64,000 nucleotides of DNA from Thermococcus sp. (GTDB lineage: Archaea; Methanobacteriota_B; Thermococci; Thermococcales; Thermococcaceae): contig NZ_JACDNS010000001.1 in the NCBI RefSeq assembly GCF_017656495.1, positions 124,001 to 188,000 of the forward strand, written 5' to 3'. Below, in pieces: positions 39,472 through 48,288 of this stretch. The notes under the pieces are model-generated. The model was not told where the DNA came from. It made no database searches and saw nothing but the letters and a program-made list of their open reading frames with translations. The position numbers and the translations under genes are program-made. Numbering within the stretch: the first letter of the stretch is position 1; each line of letters starts with the position of its first letter.

Positions 39472-40441
39472 AGAGGAGAAAATTGAATTTCTGAAGGAGC
39501 TTGTGAGCATTTACAGCCCAAGTGGAGAAGAAGAGAAGGTTGCAAAATTTTTGGTTGAGAGCTTTGAGAGTTTTGGTGTTGAGGCTTATATCGATGAAGT
39601 AGGGAATGTGATAGCTGAGAAAAGAGGAGAGGGGAGAAAAATACTCTTAGCCGGACATATAGATACCGTTAAAGGCTACATCCCAGTTAGAATCGAGGAC
39701 AATTACTTATGGGGAAGGGGAAGCGTTGATGCCAAAGGCCCTTTGGCGACTTTCTTTTTCGCTTTCCTTGAAAGCAAAGCAAATTTAATTTTCGCTGGCT
39801 TAGTTGACGAAGAGAGATATTCAATCGGAGCTAAAAATCTAAATGTTCCAAGACCAGACTTTATAATAATTGGAGAGCCAAGCGGCTTTGATAGCGTTAC
39901 AATTGGCTATAAGGGAAGCTTAACGATGAAGTTTGTGGAAAAAGTTGAGAAGTTCCATGGAAGTTTAAGCTCAAAAGGTGCTGCAGAAAAGCTAATTGAG
40001 AAATGGCTCGAGTTAAGCAGAGATTTTGGTGAAGGCTTTGATAAGCCAAGCGGGAGGATTTTGAGGTTTGAAGCCTATGAGAGAGATTTTGACTTTTATG
40101 GGGAGATGACCGTGAACATTAGAACACCTCTCAATTATGAACCAGCGATTAAAGGAGAAATTTTAGATTTTGTTCCCGCTTACGAAATTTCGCCAAGGAG
40201 CCCGCTGGTTAGGGCTTTTGTTAGGGCTATAAGGAAGAACGGAATAAAGCCAAGGTTGAAGAAAAAATCGGGTACAACAGATATGAACATCCTAGCTCCT
40301 AAGTTCGGAGTCGATGCCGTTGCTTATGGCCCTGGCGATTCAAGGCTCGATCATACTCCTTACGAGCGCTTAAACTTAGAGGAATATTTGAAAGCGATAG
40401 AAGTGCTAAAAACGGCTTTAGAAGAGTTAAAAAATATCTAA
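39458..40441 (+). CDS. lysK: LysW-lysine/ornithine hydrolase
   Basis: M20-type metallopeptidase releasing lysine or ornithine from LysW. Metal ligands are in [22 protein letters not shown] and LVDEERYS, with the C-terminal His in RLDHTPYE. 327 aa. It is the last gene of the unit and its 3' end overlaps the convergent his-operon phosphatase by 15 nt. Confidence 0.91.
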
Positions 40442-41164
40442 AAGCTTTTCTATAGCTTCATTCACGTCTTTGACGTCTCTCCCTACCATGAGGAAGCCAA
40501 AGTCTTTCCCATAGGCTTTTTTGTAATTCTCTACTAAAAGACTATCGTTTATTGTATCCCCAATATAAATTCCTTCCTCACCTTTTGTGAGATGCCAAAG
40601 AGCTTTTGGATCTGGCTTAACATAAAGCTCTCTTGTTACAGCGTTTTCGAAGTGAAAACCAAGTATTTTCTCTGCCAACTCAAGCTCCAAGGAACTTCTC
40701 CCTGTTACAACTCCAAGCTTGAATCTTTCGTTTGCCTTTTCTAAAAGCTCTCTTTTCACTATTGATTTTTCCTTTTTCCAAAGCCCATCAAATTCAAAAA
40801 TCCTGTCTTTGTAATATTCACCGAGGTAGAAAGTGTTGAAAACTTTCTCGATGCTTTTTGGGTTAACTGCTATCCCAAATCTTGATCTCACCCACTCTAT
40901 CCCCTTTCCACTTGGAAAATCCTCTACAAACTGCTGTATATCTTCAGTCAAGGCTCCGATTATCAAAGCTTCACTAACCTTAAAATCGTCTCCAAAAGCT
41001 CCTTTCTGTCTTAGCTTTCTGATTATATTCAAGTTGATTTCAACATCTTTGTTAAGCTTTTTAAGAAAGTATTCTACAGTGAGCTTTGTAGCTAGGTCAT
41101 AGCTTTTACTCACGTCTATAAGAACACCGTCAACATCAAAGATTAGCCATTTTAGCTCCTTCAT
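40427..41164 (-). CDS. HAD histidinol-phosphatase candidate
   Basis: 245 residues with HAD motifs DVDGVLIDVS, VVTGRS, a conserved Lys in VKPDPKAL and IGDTINDSL. It lies 34 nt after hisC at the end of a his operon that otherwise lacks a histidinol-phosphatase. From memory, the monofunctional Thermococcus onnurineus histidinol-phosphatase is of this DDDD-type family, so the assignment is well supported by context. ATG 41164 directly precedes MKELKWLIFDVDG. Confidence 0.82.
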   Translation of the reverse strand: MKELKWLIFDVDGVLIDVSKSYDLATKLTVEYFLKKLNKDVEINLNIIRKLRQKGAFGDDFKVSEALIIGALTEDIQQFVEDFPSGKGIEWVRSRFGIAVNPKSIEKVFNTFYLGEYYKDRIFEFDGLWKKEKSIVKRELLEKANERFKLGVVTGRSSLELELAEKILGFHFENAVTRELYVKPDPKALWHLTKGEEGIYIGDTINDSLLVENYKKAYGKDFGFLMVGRDVKDVNEAIEKLLDIF

Positions 41165-41198: not shown

Positions 41199-42212
41199 TC
41201 AGTACTTTTCCTCCAAAAACTCTTTCAAAGCCTTAATTAGCTCATCGTTTTCCTCTTTTTTGCCAACAGTAACTCTTATGTGTCCCTCCAATCGTCCGCC
41301 GAGCTTTCTCACCACGATACCCTTCTCAAGAAGGAATTTATAGGCATCTAAGCGCATGAGTAAAAAGTTTGCCTCACTTGGATAGGCGTAGTCTTTGAGC
41401 TCTCTGTAAATACGCTCACGCTCTTTAATTATGTAATTAACTCTTTCCTTAACCAGATCATAATGTCTCAGCATGACCTTGGCTGTTGTTATTGTTAATG
41501 AATTTAGACTGAAGGGTGATTTTATTCTGTAAAGGGCATCAACAATTTCTTCACTTGCTAAAAAGTAACCGACCCTTGCTCCAGCTAAACTGAATGCTTT
41601 TGAAAATGTTCTGAGTATTATGAGGTTCTCATATTCAGCAAGCAAATCAATGCAGCTCTTTTCTGAAAATTCTGCATATGCTTCATCCAGAACAACCGTA
41701 ACACCAGTATCAAGAACCTTAAGTATCTCTTCTCTTGGCTGGGTATTGCCCGTTGGGTTGTTTGGAGAAGTTATGAAAACAATGCTCGCTTTTTTAGCTT
41801 TTTCGGCAATCATGTCCCCATTTATTGTGAATTTCTTATCCAAGGGTACTTCTACGACAGGAATTCCATTCAGCTTTGCATAGAAGTAGTACATACCAAA
41901 AGTCGGAGGCGTTGTAATTATGTAGTCTCCTTCAAAAATTCTTATGAGGTAGCTCAGCAGTTCATCTCCTCCGTTTCCTACAGCAATGTTTTTTGGACTA
42001 AGCCCATAAAATTCTGCTATAGCTTCCCTCAGAGGCATGGATGTTATGTGTGGGTAGCGATTGAAGGGGGTTTTCCTGAGTTCTTCAAAGATTTCCTCTT
42101 TTATTTCTGGTGGCAAGTCGAAGGGATTTTCGTTCTTGTCGAGCCAAATTTTGTAATTTCCCTCCAAAACCCTGTAAGGCTCAAAGCTTTTAATTAACTC
42201 TCGAATTTTCAC
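41199..42212 (-). CDS. hisC: histidinol-phosphate aminotransferase
   Basis: PLP enzyme converting imidazole acetol phosphate to histidinol phosphate. [12 protein letters not shown] near the start, [21 protein letters not shown] and the PLP lysine in [19 protein letters not shown] are visible. 337 aa. It overlaps hisIE by 4 nt. Confidence 0.92.
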
Positions 42213-42838
42213 TTTCTTCGCCTCCTCAATTCTTCCATAACTTCTCCCAGGCTTATTTCATTATAGGCAAGCAGAACCAACAAATGATAAAGCAAATCAG
42301 CGGTCTCGTAAATTATTCTCTTCCTTCCTTCAGCGACTAAAACCTCAATTGCCTCCTCTCCAAACTTCTTGTAGATTTTCTCCTTCCCCTCTTTGAACAG
42401 CTTTGACGTATAGGAACCTTCCTTTGGATTCTCCTTTCGTTGCTTTATCAACTCTTCAAGCTCTCTCAGGATTGTGAGCGAGTAGTCTATTCCGCCAACG
42501 GCTTTCTCAGGCTCTCCTAGCTTTCTGTAAAAGCATGAGTAGTTCCCCGTGTGGCACGCAACACCGGCTTGCTCAACAATTAAAAGCAAAGCGTCATTGT
42601 CGCAGTCTATTCTAATCTCCTTTACTCTTTGAACGTTCCCACTAACCTCACCCTTCATCCTAATTCTCTTTTGACTCCTTGAATAGTAGTGGGCATAACC
42701 CGTTTCAAGCGTCTTCACTAAAGCTTCTTTGTTCATGTAAGCTAAGGTCAGCACCTCTCCTTTTGTATCTTGGACAATTACTGGGACAATCCCATTGTTC
42801 TTCTCCCAGTTGACTTTTTCAATAAGCTCCTCCTTCAT
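42209..42838 (-). CDS. hisI: bifunctional PRA-CH / PRA-PH (HisIE)
   Basis: Two fused steps. The N-terminal HisI cyclohydrolase half carries [30 protein letters not shown] and CHTGNYSCF with zinc ligands. The C-terminal HisE pyrophosphatase half carries [24 protein letters not shown] and [12 protein letters not shown]. About 209 aa. ATG 42838 has GGAGTGAT upstream; longer starts fall in that site. Confidence 0.93.
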
Positions 42839-42843
42839 TTTCA

Positions 42844-43599
42844 TCACTCCAGTCTTATAGGAACACCTTTCTTAGCTAGGTATTCTTTCAGCTCTCTAAC
42901 CGTGTACTTTCCATAGTGGAATATCGAAGCTGCCAAAGCTGCCTCAGCACCTATTTTAAACGCTTCATAAAAGTGCTCTGGACTTCCAGCACCTCCAGAG
43001 GCTATAACTGGAATATCCACAGCTTCAACAATCGCTTTAGTCAGCGGAATATCAAAGCCTTGCTGAGTTCCATCTGTGTCCATTGACGTCAAGAGTATTT
43101 CTCCAGCACCTAAGCGCTCAACTTCCTTTGCCCACTCTATAGCATCAATACCTCTCGCCTTTCTTCCTCCGTGAGTGTAGACCTCCCAAAACTTGCCGTT
43201 CCACTTTGCGTCAATTGCTATGACTAAATTTGCACTCCCAACAACTTTTGCCGCTTCGCTTACGAGCTTGGGATTATCAACGGCCGCTGTATTTAGGAAA
43301 ACCTTATCAGCACCGCTTTTGATTATCTCTCTTATTTCTTCAACACTCCTAATTCCTCCGCCAACTGTAAATGGGACGTAGATCTCTTCAGCTATTCTCT
43401 TAACCAAATCAAGGAGGATTTTTCTTTTTTCGTAAGATGCGGTAATATCTAAGAAAACTATCTCGTCTATTCCTTCTTCCTCATAGCGCTTCGCTAATTC
43501 TATTGGGTCTCCAGCGTCGCGAATGTTTTGAAACTTTATCCCTTTGACCACTCTACCTTCTTTTATATCTAAAGCCGCGATAATTCTTTTGGCAAGCAT
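42844..43599 (-). CDS. hisF: imidazole glycerol phosphate synthase, cyclase subunit
   Basis: TIM barrel using ammonia from HisH to close the imidazole ring. [18 protein letters not shown] with the catalytic Asp, [30 protein letters not shown] with the second Asp, and [14 protein letters not shown] 43599 is chosen; GTG 43608 lies within the AGGTGAT site. About 251 aa. Confidence 0.95.
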
Positions 43600-43600
43600 C

Positions 43601-44290
43601 TCAATCACCTAAGACATTTAACAGCTCTTCTAAAGTAACCTTACCCTCGTAGAGGGCTTTTCCCACTATAGCCCCAGAGAATCCAATCTCTCTAAGCTTT
43701 AGTACATCGCTTACGCTTGAGACGCCCCCAGCGTAGATAACCTCTTCTCCATCCCAAAAGCGATTAATCTTTTCAATTCCCATCAAGGTGCCATCCCTTT
43801 CGATTGCCGTGTAAATGAACCTATTAATGTACTTTTTGAGCATCTCGTAAGCCTCTTCAACGGTTATAGAGCTCTCCTCCTCCCAGCCTTTTACAGCTAT
43901 CCTTCCGCCTCTGGCATCTAAGCTTACAGTTATTCCTTCAAAATCCTGCGTTACCTTTTCTAAAAACTCCAAATCAAAGGCTTTCGTTCCTATTATGACG
44001 TTCTCAACGCCAATTGAGTAGGCTTTCACTATGCTCTCATAGTCCCTAAAGCCTCCACCCACCTGAATCTTCAGCCCAGTCTCCTCTATTATCCTCCTCA
44101 TGACGTCAAGGTTATTTGGCTTTCCTTCAAAGGCTCCATCCAAGTCCACTATGTGGATTTTGTCCACAAGCTTGGCAAAATCCTTAGCTATCTCTACTGG
44201 ATCTCCATAAACTTTTACGCTCTCTTTTTTGCCCTTGTAGAGCCTCACAGCTTTCCCGCTCATTAAATCTATTGCAGGGTAAACCCTCAT
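43601..44290 (-). CDS. hisA: ProFAR isomerase
   Basis: Aminoaldose-ketose isomerase of the half-barrel duplicated family. [15 protein letters not shown] with the catalytic Asp, [11 protein letters not shown], and [12 protein letters not shown] with the second catalytic Asp. 229 aa. It ends within a few nt of the hisF start and begins 1 nt after hisH. Confidence 0.94.
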
Positions 44291-44291
44291 C

Positions 44292-44879
44292 TCACAGCCT
44301 CCTGAAGTTTTCTAAAAGCTTCAACCCATTTTTGCTCGACTTTTCTGGGTGAAATTGAACCCCAAAGATGTTATCTTTGTAAACTGCTGAAGGAAAGACT
44401 ACTTCCTTCCCCTTTGACTCATAGTCCGTTATTGCTGCAATTACTTCTTTGTCTTGAGGGTTTACATAGTAGGAGTGCACGAAGTAGAAGTAGCTCCCGC
44501 TTTTGATTCCTTCAAAGAGCGGACACTCTTTAGCAGGAAAAACTTGATTCCAGCCTATGTGGGGGACCCTAACACCTCTAAACTTCACTACATTGCCCTT
44601 AAATACTTCTAAGCCCTTCCCTTCGCTTTCTTCGCTCCACTCAAACAAAAGCTGCATTCCTAGGCATATCCCAAGGAATGGCTTTCCTTCATTGATCGCA
44701 TCTAAGATCGTCTCTTTTAGAGGCTCAAGCCTTTTCATCACTGCTCCAAAGTTCCCTACCCCCGGGAGCACGATCTTATCGGCTCTCTCAATCTCATAGG
44801 AGTCACTCGTGATTATTCCACCCAAGGCTTTTCTAACATTTGCCAAGTTCCCAATCCCTAAATCCACTATTGCTATCAT
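44292..44879 (-). CDS. hisH: imidazole glycerol phosphate synthase, glutaminase subunit
   Basis: Class-I amidotransferase partner of HisF. IVDLGIGNLANVRKAL at the start, nucleophile Cys in FLGICLGMQLLF, and His/Glu in VQFHPEKSS. 195 aa. Confidence 0.95.
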   Translation of the reverse strand: MIAIVDLGIGNLANVRKALGGIITSDSYEIERADKIVLPGVGNFGAVMKRLEPLKETILDAINEGKPFLGICLGMQLLFEWSEESEGKGLEVFKGNVVKFRGVRVPHIGWNQVFPAKECPLFEGIKSGSYFYFVHSYYVNPQDKEVIAAITDYESKGKEVVFPSAVYKDNIFGVQFHPEKSSKNGLKLLENFRRL

Positions 44880-45413
44880 TTACAGCACCCCTTTCGTGCT
44901 CTCCAAACGCTTGCTCTCTCTCAAAGCCTTTCTTAAAGCGACGCCGAGTCCTTTAAATGCCGCCTCGATGACGTGGTGGGCATTAACTCCGCTCAACTGC
45001 TTCATGTGAATTGTTGCATTGAGAGTCCTCGCTAAAGCCCAGAGGAACTCCCTAACTAACGTGAGCTCAAATCCCTCTTCACCCTCTTCCGGGGCGAGCT
45101 CAACGCTGGCATATGCTCTACCAGAGATGTCCACGGCAACCAAAACCAATGCATCGTCCATTGGCATTATTGCGTTCCCAAAGCGCGCTATCTTTTTGCC
45201 CTTGATTTTCTCTTTGAGCTCTTCTCCAAGGACTATACCCAAGTCCTCCCATAGGTGATGCCTTAAGTCATAGCTCGCTTTAATGTTAACTTTCTCACGC
45301 ATGTAAAAGAATAAAGCGGTAAGGAGGTGGTCAAATACTCTATCTCCTGTTTCTATGCTTCCCTCAACGCCGATCTCCACGGTTATGTCAGTCTCTTTCG
45401 TTTTGCGTCTCAT
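44880..45413 (-). CDS. hisB: imidazoleglycerol-phosphate dehydratase
   Basis: Monofunctional dehydratase with its duplicated metal-site motifs: [26 protein letters not shown] and [20 protein letters not shown]. 177 aa, a little short of the usual 190. There is no fused phosphatase, so a separate histidinol-phosphatase is needed (see 40427-41164). Confidence 0.94.
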
Positions 45414-46543
45414 TTTCTAACCTCCATTGACTTCTTGTGCATCTCCATTTCCTCTATCTCAGCCAATCTAATTCCTAGATAGCGCTCGCTTAGGAATTCT
45501 TCTCTGCTTACGTAGGCTAGACTTATTCTTTTCATGAAGTCCATAACTGTTAAAACCCCGCTGAACTTCGCAGCTCCACCGGTTGGCAGGACGTGGTTAA
45601 CTCCAAGGAAGTAGTCAGCAGCTGGCACCGGTGTGTATTCGCCGAGATAAATCGCTCCAGCGTTTTCAATTAAATCTACGAGCTTCAGTGGTTCCTTTGT
45701 GATTATCTCCAAGTGTTCTGGAGCTATCTCGTTAGCTTTTTCGGCACATTCTTCCAAGCTTTCACATAGGACAACTTCAATTCCGTCCCTTTTGCAGTAC
45801 TCCGCTAATTCCTTTGAAGTCGTTAAAAGCCAAGCCTTGCTATCTTTTCCGTGCTCCAGCTGGGAAAGCAAATCGTATAAAACATACTCCTTATCTGCTG
45901 TCTCATCGGCTATAACAGCTATCTCTGATGGTCCAGCTAAGCTGTCAATTCCTACAACACCAAAGACCTGCCTCTTTGCTTCGTTCACGAACTTATTGCC
46001 TGGACCGAAGATTTTGTCTACTTTCTTCATTCCAATGCCGTAAGCCATTGCTCCAATCGCTTGGATTCCACCGAGCTTGTAGACCTCTTTGATGCCAAGA
46101 AGCTTTGCAACATAGAGGATGTACGGATTGACTTTGCCGTTTTTAGGTGGTGTTGTAACTGCTATCTCCTTAACACCAGCTATCTTCGCTGGAACTCCAA
46201 CCATCATGAGCGTCGAAGGCAGAGGCTTCCCTCCGGGGACGTAGATACCGATCCTCCTTATCGGCTTGTAGATTATACCATAAAGCGAAGCGTTCTTTAT
46301 GTAGAGCTTATCGCTCTCAAGCTGTTTTTCGTGATACTCCCAGATTCTTTCTATTGTGCGCTTGATGATTTTCTTATCCTTCTCTGGAATTTGCCTCTCC
46401 GCTTCTTCAAACTCCTCTTCGCTGACAAGGAATTCCCCATCATAGCCGTCAAACTTCCTTGAGTATTCCTTCACAGCTTCAATGCCTCTTTCCCTTATGT
46501 CTTTCAAAATTTGAGCCACATAGCTTTCTAACTCAAAATTCAT
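45410..46543 (-). CDS. hisD: histidinol dehydrogenase
   Basis: Zinc enzyme oxidising histidinol to histidine in two steps. [21 protein letters not shown], the family signature [29 protein letters not shown]-like [13 protein letters not shown], and C-terminal His in [10 protein letters not shown]. About 377 aa, shorter than the bacterial 430. ATG 46543 is chosen because AAGGAGG lies 9 nt upstream. Confidence 0.93.
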
Positions 46544-47150
46544 CTTTGACAACCTCCTTAATTTTTAAAACAAGCTCGTTAATCTCCTTAAACTTCGTCT
46601 TTTGGGAAATTCTATTCACCAAAAGCAGAGCGGAAACATCCATAATCTTCTCTACCTCAACTAAGCCGTTAGCCCTCAACGTGTTTCCAGTCTCGACTAT
46701 GTCAACGATAGCATCTGCAATCCCAATTTTTGGAGCAAGTTCGATGCTTCCGTGAAGCTTTATCACTTCAACCTCTACTCCTCTCCTCTCAAAGAACTTC
46801 TTTGCAAGGTTTGGGTATTTGGTGGCTATCCTAAAACCGTCCATCTCTTCAACGCTGACTGCATTTTCTTTGGGCATCGCCAAGCTTAAGCGACACTTCC
46901 CAAAAGGCAGCTCAAGAGGAACGAGGACGTCACTTTCCCTTTCCTCAACAACATCGCTTCCAGCTATGCCAACGTCAACGCCATACTCGACATAAACCGG
47001 GACATCAAAAGCCCTTGCAAGGAGAAGCTCATACCTGCCGTTTTTCACAATCAATTCTCTGTTCTCTGGTGGCTTAAGCTCAATCCCAGCTTTTCGTAGG
47101 ATTTCAAGCGAACCCTTGAATAGTCGTCCTTTTGGGAGAACAAATCTCAT
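46533..47150 (-). CDS. hisG: ATP phosphoribosyltransferase, short form
   Basis: First committed step of histidine synthesis. 205 aa: [38 protein letters not shown] and the PRPP loop [18 protein letters not shown]. The short form lacks the C-terminal histidine-binding domain and needs HisZ, which is the gene upstream. It overlaps hisZ by 4 nt. Confidence 0.95.
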
Positions 47151-48037
47151 TCTCCCACCTCCACTGGAATGCCGAGTTTCACGAGCTCTTTTGCAAGCTT
47201 GTATGCTTCTTTCGGCTCTCCACCGATTCTCTTTCTGCTCTTCTCTATCCTCCCGTCAAAGAGCTTTGAGAGTGTATTTAAGTCAAAGGCGAATCCAAAA
47301 GCGCTGACTCCCTTGAAGGTATATTCCCCACCACCACCGAGTGGTTTTCCAATTTTGGGAGAATAGACTTCAAAGATTATGTCACTGTAGTAGGGTAGAG
47401 GCCTTATTGTGCCGAAGTCTATGAAGACTCTCTCATCGTCAACTGCCTCGATAATTTTATTAAGCTTTTCGTATTCACAGCTCTTTCCCCTGAAGTTGAA
47501 CAGTTGCCAGAGCTCTTCTTTCTTCTCCTCGTTTATAGGCAGTCTTTCGATGATTTCGAAGTTTCTTCTCGTCAAGGCTCTGAAAATTTCTGCTTTGAAT
47601 TCTTCAATTCCTTCAATTGCTCTCTCCCAGACCTTCAAGCTGCCGACGTCGATGTAGAAGTCCTCGATGCCAAGTGCTTCGAGAGAAGTTATAACAGTTA
47701 AAAGAACCTCGACCTGCATTTTGACGTCTTCTCCACCAATAAACTCAACTCCAGCCTGCCAGTTCCCTTTAATTCCACCATTCAGCACTTCACTGATGTA
47801 GTAGAGCTTAAGTCTCCTAGGCTCCTTGAGGTTTGCAAGTATCTGGGATGTTAAGTCTGGTTTTATTACATAAAATCCATTGTTGTAAGCAAATTTTGTT
47901 CCTTTTCTAAGCTGCTCGCTGAACTCTTCTATCGTTGGCAAAAATATCTCTCTATAACCCCAAAGCTCAAATGTTCGCCTTAAATACTTTGTAATATCTG
48001 CTAACCTCTCTGATTCGGAAAATAAATCCTTCTTCAA
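47147..48037 (-). CDS. hisZ: ATP phosphoribosyltransferase regulatory subunit
   Basis: HisRS-like protein without tRNA charging: [21 protein letters not shown] and the class-II-like motif LTSQILANL, with a shortened C-terminal part. 296 aa, shorter than the usual 330-400 aa. It forms a complex with HisG and gives histidine feedback. TTG 48037 is well supported by GGAGGG 6 nt upstream. A 32-codon His-terminated leader ORF ends 78 nt before it. Confidence 0.9.
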
Positions 48038-48115
48038 AATAATCCCTCCGAGAATTTTTCGATGAGAAAATCTCCCGTTAAATAATGTCCAACTAAGCTA
48101 AGTGTTCCAGAACAG

Positions 48116-48214
48116 TCAATGATGATGGTAGTAACTCACCAGAAAAGCCATGAAAAAGTTAACTTCTTCTCTAAAGTTTGTACCTCTTTTGTTGTCTATT
48201 CCTCCCCCTCTCAT
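48116..48214 (-). CDS. histidine leader peptide of the his operon (unannotated)
   Basis: ATG 48214 to TGA 48118-48116 encodes 32 residues, MRGGGIDNKRG...LVSYYHHH, with three tandem CAT codons directly before the stop. GAGGTG (48226-48221) is 6 nt before the ATG. TATA at 48255-48247 puts RNA initiation near 48225, so this is the first ORF of the his mRNA. The bacterial his leader is the known parallel. I know of no archaeal example, so its role in histidine-dependent control is inference. Candidate hairpins overlap the His codons (see findings). Confidence 0.72.
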   Translation of the reverse strand: MRGGGIDNKRGTNFREEVNFFMAFLVSYYHHH

Positions 48215-48245
48215 TTTAAACACCTCAACTCCCAATGTCTTGCAC

Positions 48246-48256
48246 CCTATATAAGT
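48246..48256 (-). promoter_or_regulatory. TATA box of the his operon
   Basis: On the minus strand AACTTATATAG is a strong TATA box, about 26 bp before the predicted initiation point near 48225. Confidence 0.65.
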
Positions 48257-48271
48257 TTAACCTATTAAAAG

Positions 48272-48288
48272 TTTGTCAGTATGACAAA
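48272..48288. promoter_or_regulatory. operator-like inverted repeat upstream of his TATA
   Basis: TTTGTCA-GTA-TGACAAA has perfect 7-bp arms and lies 16 bp upstream of the TATA box. It is a good candidate binding site for a dimeric regulator of the his operon. Confidence 0.55.

Follow-up and report, generated by a model that had tools for sequence, protein, structure and literature searches.

A 32-codon open reading frame (ORF) lying directly before the his operon of Thermococcus sp. is, in our judgement, likely to be a histidine-codon leader peptide, and would serve as a ribosome-mediated attenuator of that operon. Sensing of histidine through the codons of this leader appears highly probable when the related loci are compared, as the ORF and its terminal His codons recur before the his genes throughout the Thermococcaceae that we collected. 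The step by which the leader would act on the operon is set out below as a model.

The his locus and its leader ORF

In the window, by which we mean the whole 64,000-nucleotide stretch of DNA analysed, the leader ORF (MRGGGIDNKRGTNFREEVNFFMAFLVSYYHHH*) occupies positions 48116..48214 of the minus strand, which from 48214 to 48116 reads directly as ATG ... TAC TAC CAT CAT CAT TGA. The three tandem CAT (His) codons at 48119..48127, the proposed stall site, adjoin the TGA stop codon at 48116-48118. A Shine-Dalgarno (SD) sequence, GAGGTG (48221..48226), is located 6 nt 5ʹ of the ATG, and a TATA box, CTTATATA (48248..48255), 41 nt 5ʹ of it, both on the minus strand. On the other side of the leader, an untranslated spacer of 78 nt (48038..48115, minus strand), which is T-rich (T fraction 0.36), has T runs of 4 at most and lacks a conserved hairpin, leads to the TTG start of hisZ at 48037; the SD sequence of hisZ, GGAGGG, is found at 48044..48049 on the same strand. 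The sequence-only reading had described a minus-strand ORF of 32 codons with three CAT codons before TGA, and hisZ 78 nt downstream, and the coordinates, the codons and the gap were all confirmed by the sequence. The TATA box and ribosome site that it had assigned to the leader are both present as well, with a placement that is conserved across relatives.

The genes after the leader, as assigned by family models, form a hisZGDBHAFIEC cluster on the minus strand. The first of them, hisZ (47147..48037), codes for a HisRS-like regulatory subunit of ATP phosphoribosyltransferase; TIGR00443 was the best model for it, with a score below the cut-off of the model. It is followed by the short form of hisG (46533..47150; TIGR00070, 4.6e-62) and by the remaining operon, hisD, hisB, hisH, hisA, hisF, hisIE and hisC in this order (41199..46552; NCBIfam matches above curated cut-offs). 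The translation of the focal HisZ contains no His residues at all, and the first 840 nt of the hisZ genes at 41 loci contain 9 His codons in total. Since HisZ is nearly His-free, the first protein of the operon could be made under histidine shortage. Directly after hisC, at window positions 40427-41164, we also noticed a gene for a HAD-family hydrolase, TIGR01548-like (below cut-off), which could be the source of the histidinol-phosphatase step missing from the his operon.

An inverted repeat 5ʹ of the TATA box, TTTGTCA-TAC-TGACAAA (48272..48288, by direct reading), is a candidate operator, and related TGTCAT..TGACA motifs are present 5ʹ of other his promoters. This suggests that a transcription factor is also acting at these promoters, and the candidate operator may work separately from the leader.

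Conservation of the leader among Thermococcaceae

To compare his loci, we took hisZ relatives and contigs titled Thermococcus, Thermococcaceae or Thermococci, and extracted and oriented the DNA upstream. The resulting 47 distinct his loci comprised 41 tabulated loci and 6 loci from a hisG search, with hisZ identity to the focal gene going down to 58% among the relatives. The sequence-only reading had staked its proposal on the persistence of the frame and of the tandem His codons in homologues; an equivalent in-frame ORF with 2-4 terminal His codons was present at all 47 Thermococcaceae his loci, and the tail after the His run was never longer than 7 residues.

In the 41 tabulated loci the leaders are 12-40 codons long and mostly have an SD sequence, and an automatic scan found a TATA box 40-50 nt 5ʹ of the leader start in 39 of them. 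The two exceptions in the scan were L043 and the focal locus, L001, for which CTTATATA at 41 nt ranked second. The usual distance from TATA box to transcription start is about 25 nt, which together with the placement of the TATA boxes indicates a short leader 5ʹ UTR. Judging from the SD sequence and the TATA placement, with the start derived from the TATA box, the leader is a short first ORF with its own SD sequence. Short 5ʹ UTRs are typical of T. onnurineus, in which their median is 12 nt (PMC5316973).

The C-terminus of the leader, LVSYCHHH, is conserved among the nearer relatives. In divergent loci, with ends such as RVSLHH*, DSCHHPF*, TYCHHLF*, RLHCHH* and MIFHHI*, VSY is gone and HH is kept, and the N-termini are unrelated between clades. 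Within the 2.05-Mb genome CAYCAYCAYTRA occurs 10 times and CATCATCATTGA twice; none of the other nine CAYCAYCAYTRA sites, scanned with the genes downstream left unannotated, resembles a second leader. Taken over these sequences, the leader arrangement is beyond what chance would produce.

Selection on frame, residues and codons

Substitutions counted in groups of close relatives were spread near evenly over the codon, with 36, 47 and 44 at positions 1, 2 and 3. The tally of synonymous to nonsynonymous-type changes was 22:45 in the leader frame, as compared to 16:53 and 18:52 out of frame, and no clear synonymous excess in the leader frame was seen in these groups. The frame itself is always open, with no stop codon inside the leader bodies; when the leader bodies of 19 representatives, only partly independent of one another, were dinucleotide-shuffled, the joint probability of staying open was ~2e-12. 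An open frame with free residues indicates that translation up to the His codons matters and that the upstream residues do not. Such an open frame with a drifting peptide reads as the signature of a leader peptide rather than of a functional small protein.

The conserved position and frame would also be expected of a leader ORF that encodes a conserved functional small protein, but its residues are without purifying selection and its N-termini are unrelated between clades. The codon-position test led us to reject this reading, and we give it practically no chance.

The choice of His codon is also distinctive. In the 41 tabulated leaders the ratio of CAT to CAC is 102:2, whereas elsewhere it is 140:153 in the long ORFs of the window and 16:52 in GC-richer his loci. 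Alternatively, the ORF could be an upstream ORF (uORF) whose role is to maintain translation of the 5ʹ region, for mRNA stability or basal coupling, with no sensing of histidine; an open frame with a free sequence is what such a uORF would have. However, it leaves the His-His at every his locus unexplained, as well as the Ile/Leu/Val runs found at ilvB (see below), and we consider it very improbable.

The element after the leader stop codon

The comparison of the 47 loci revealed a post-stop element, CTGTTCTGG (48107..48115, minus strand), with an invariant TTCT at 48112-48109. At each of the 47 loci TTCT is found 3, 6 or 9 nt past the last His codon, always at a multiple of three, and the chance of TTCT within 16 nt is about 9% per locus. 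Read in the leader frame, the element gives TTC (Phe) and then T at 47/47 loci; the preceding codon is Leu in 42 of the 47, written with five different codons, and a second in-frame stop codon often comes directly after Phe. A stop codon directly after His is always TGA, and the next base is C in 32 out of 34 cases. In the loci that do not have an immediate TGA, the peptide runs on as LF*, PF*, RLF* or longer. TGA followed by C is a weak termination context. The pattern looks like either an HH(x)LF* ending of ancestral type into which UGA was introduced afterwards, or slow or leaky termination at UGA, where a ribosome may pause or read through.

When the last His codon occupies the ribosomal A site, the start of TTCT lies 6-12 nt 3ʹ of the first base of that codon, and a bacterial-size ribosome footprint would take in TTCT at this distance. 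Since TTCT is inside the expected footprint, a stalled ribosome would cover it.

Another way in which the end of the leader could act is TnaC-like arrest by the nascent peptide, where the C-terminus LVSYCHHH with UGA would bind histidine or stall termination, and the arrest would be the signal. The conserved C-terminus of the nearer relatives is consistent with it, as is the uniform use of TGA, mostly with C next, for the immediate stops. However, the divergent loci keep only His-His, and arrest by excess histidine has the wrong sign for a biosynthetic operon, unless it is repressing. We therefore hold this explanation to be improbable.

RNA structure and the spacer

The sequence-only reading had offered two switches that would operate on the RNA itself, the folding of the downstream RNA and the access to the hisZ ribosome site. 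As for the first, RNAalifold found no conserved hairpin, the consensus for the near loci amounting to only -2.8 kcal/mol. There was no intrinsic terminator and no antiterminator-terminator pair at the loci compared, in which T runs are mostly of 4 or fewer and reach 5-6 in a few, and no Rfam family (riboswitch, T-box) matched within the window at the gathering threshold. The spacer, with a T content of 0.34 vs 0.22 in hisZ, measures 57-82 nt in most loci. In L029, L030 and L042 only about 30-40 nt separate the leader stop codon from the hisZ match, which leaves little space for a termination complex before hisZ.

The second switch corresponds to ermC-like translational attenuation, in which the post-stop pyrimidine element would pair with the hisZ SD sequence, and a ribosome stalled at the His codons would break the pairing, so that hisZ is translated. 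Sequestration of the SD sequence was the first model considered, and it was appealing in the Thermococcus-like loci, where CTCTTCTG and CAGGAGGG have 8 possible pairs and a duplex of -8 to -14 kcal/mol. With a modelled ribosome, L008 and L027 gained about 5.8 kcal, and L007, L038 and L041 gained 2-3 kcal; moreover, in a second taxonomic family, described below, a CGCC-N5-GGCG repeat abuts the hisG SD sequence. However, with the ribosome modelled on the His codons, the gain in SD opening had a median of 0.1 kcal/mol over the 41 loci and was -0.4 kcal at the focal locus, and the gain at the His codons had a median rank of 0.46 among sliding ribosome positions. TTCT remains fixed while the SD sequence varies and the pairing weakens in L011, L012, L042 and L043. 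Growth near 80-100 °C is also unfavourable to weak helices, the folding here being computed with 37 °C parameters. SD sequestration thus failed as a general rule, both in the ribosome modelling and in the comparison of SD sequence and TTCT across clades; access to the hisZ ribosome site is unsupported as a general mechanism at the 41 loci, and we regard this explanation as unlikely. With no conserved hairpin and no general SD release, the classical hairpin attenuator and the general SD switch both fail.

Proposed mechanism of attenuation

In classical attenuators, starved and fed ribosomes halt at different places. In the his leader the His codons touch the stop codon, and therefore the fed and starved states would differ in the presence of the ribosome and not in its stopping place. 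This favours the masking of a nearby site by the ribosome, for which TTCT is the obvious candidate.

From the anatomy of the locus, its conservation, the free upstream peptide and the invariant TTCT, we infer the following course of translation, stalling, masking and polymerase release. Judged by the position of the TATA box, transcription would start about 15-20 nt 5ʹ of the leader ATG, and the leader would be translated first. When His-tRNA is ample, the ribosome would pass the tandem CAT codons, terminate at the adjoining UGA and depart; the pyrimidine element with TTCT would then be bare, and RNA polymerase would be released in the 78-nt spacer before hisZ, most likely via FttA (aCPSF1). 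When His-tRNA is scarce, the ribosome would be held on the His codons with TTCT covered, and the polymerase would proceed into hisZ.

Termination of FttA type had been the third option of the sequence-only reading, and it is compatible with the locus. To terminate transcription, FttA cleaves the transcript 22 nt behind the end at the polymerase, with a preference for exposed U-rich RNA at -30 to -36 (PMC11616081), and polarity in archaea is probably due to FttA (PMC12548453). The published optimum of FttA is, however, U-rich RNA and not a TTCT motif, which counts against the FttA step of the masking model. FttA may still be the output step, to which we assign somewhat less than an even chance.

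Leaders before other operons

In six genomes from another taxonomic family, within the class to which the Thermococcaceae belong, a different His-ended leader (L113, L117, L127, L134, L135 and L136), for example MGIINENVKFDSSIILSCTAHHH*, precedes the long form of hisG. This leader ends with HHQ in one genome and with YHHN in another, and its stop codon lies about 30 nt from hisG. The CGCC-N(5-6)-GGCG repeat directly abuts the GGAGG of hisG, with CGTC (a G-U pair) in one member; when single sequences were folded, only part of the members formed the repeat hairpin, and the rest adopted different local structures. Control of the SD sequence is plausible in this family on the basis of such modelling. 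Except for the His end, there is no evident sequence shared with the Thermococcaceae leaders, and either convergence or rapid drift is therefore possible. Some short ORFs with two His codons also precede hisG genes of other archaea, but no trustworthy conserved pattern of His leaders emerged there.

Leaders ending in a run of Ile/Leu/Val, at or next to the stop codon, were present in 5 of 6 Thermococcaceae with ilvB. These leaders (L196-L200, in G012, G007, G016, G020 and G051; for example MNVRTSTLTFMSSLPLTLAILILLVIIIIIILI* and MNTLNLHPRTILQTLLIVILVIIIIIIRA*) are placed at a short distance before ilvB of the ilv-leu operon, and they are apparent branched-chain leader peptides of Thermococcaceae. 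In L198 and L200 the leader stop codon is followed at once by a small, perfect inverted repeat. Both the ilvB leaders and the hisG leaders of the second family lend support to the leader-peptide reading of the his ORF. The sixth Thermococcaceae ilvB (G072) follows another gene and has no leader. At 50 further ilvB genes, namely G072 and 49 from other archaea, the search for branched-chain amino acid leaders returned one weak match, the background being 14 of 650 sequence windows.

In the Thermococcaceae genomes we found no Trp leaders before trpC, no leaders before homoserine dehydrogenase and no Phe leaders before prephenate dehydratase. As trp, hom and pheA have no leader, leader attenuation is not a general strategy in these genomes. 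A wider proposal, rather doubtful at this stage, is that Thermococcales use, at the his and ilv operons, a leader attenuation mechanism of a general archaeal kind, which works by a ribosome stalled at the leader end shielding a site of FttA, a CPSF73-type terminator; this would be a counterpart of Rho-dependent attenuation built on unrelated machinery.

Relation to known attenuators

The his leader resembles the bacterial hisL, ilvL and trpL: in each case the operon is immediately preceded by a short ORF, the first to be read, in which codons for the end product stand in tandem and the peptide is otherwise free. It differs from them in its archaeal host and polymerase, in that no terminator or antiterminator hairpins were found, and in the position of the His codons, which are at the stop codon in nearly all loci. 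In the tnaC system of E. coli, a ribosome at the leader stop codon keeps Rho from its loading region. Similarly, a ribosome stalled at or near the stop codon of the his leader would cover a putative factor site, an unstructured spacer adjoins it, and the stop codon is mostly UGA. However, tnaC senses an inducer by the nascent chain and controls catabolism, whereas here the end-product codons would be the sensor; moreover, archaea are without Rho, and FttA would stand in its place. The likeness to ermC, in which leader stalling could expose a downstream SD sequence, concerns the second family, with its repeat touching the hisG SD sequence, but SD release is unsupported in most Thermococcaceae loci.

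The sequence-only reading knew of no archaeal case of this kind, which agrees with our finding no archaeal leader-peptide attenuator in the open-access literature, a scope that leaves out most subscription journals. A 2014 paper on T. kodakarensis states that no experiments then supported attenuators in Archaea, and a methods paper mentions, without going into particulars, that archaea use uORFs for regulation (PMC10219788). What sets the present case apart is that its host is an archaeon, that it shows no hairpins and that the element after the stop codon is fixed; the principle is already known from bacteria.

The his and ilvB leaders offer a conserved, amino-acid-specific candidate at two operons in genetically tractable organisms. 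If the proposal is true, archaeal ribosomes, like bacterial ones, would report the charging of tRNA to operon expression, and the leaders would be a natural substrate for studying the coupling of archaeal translation to FttA termination. Codon-sensing control that does without stable hairpins would fit life near 100 °C.
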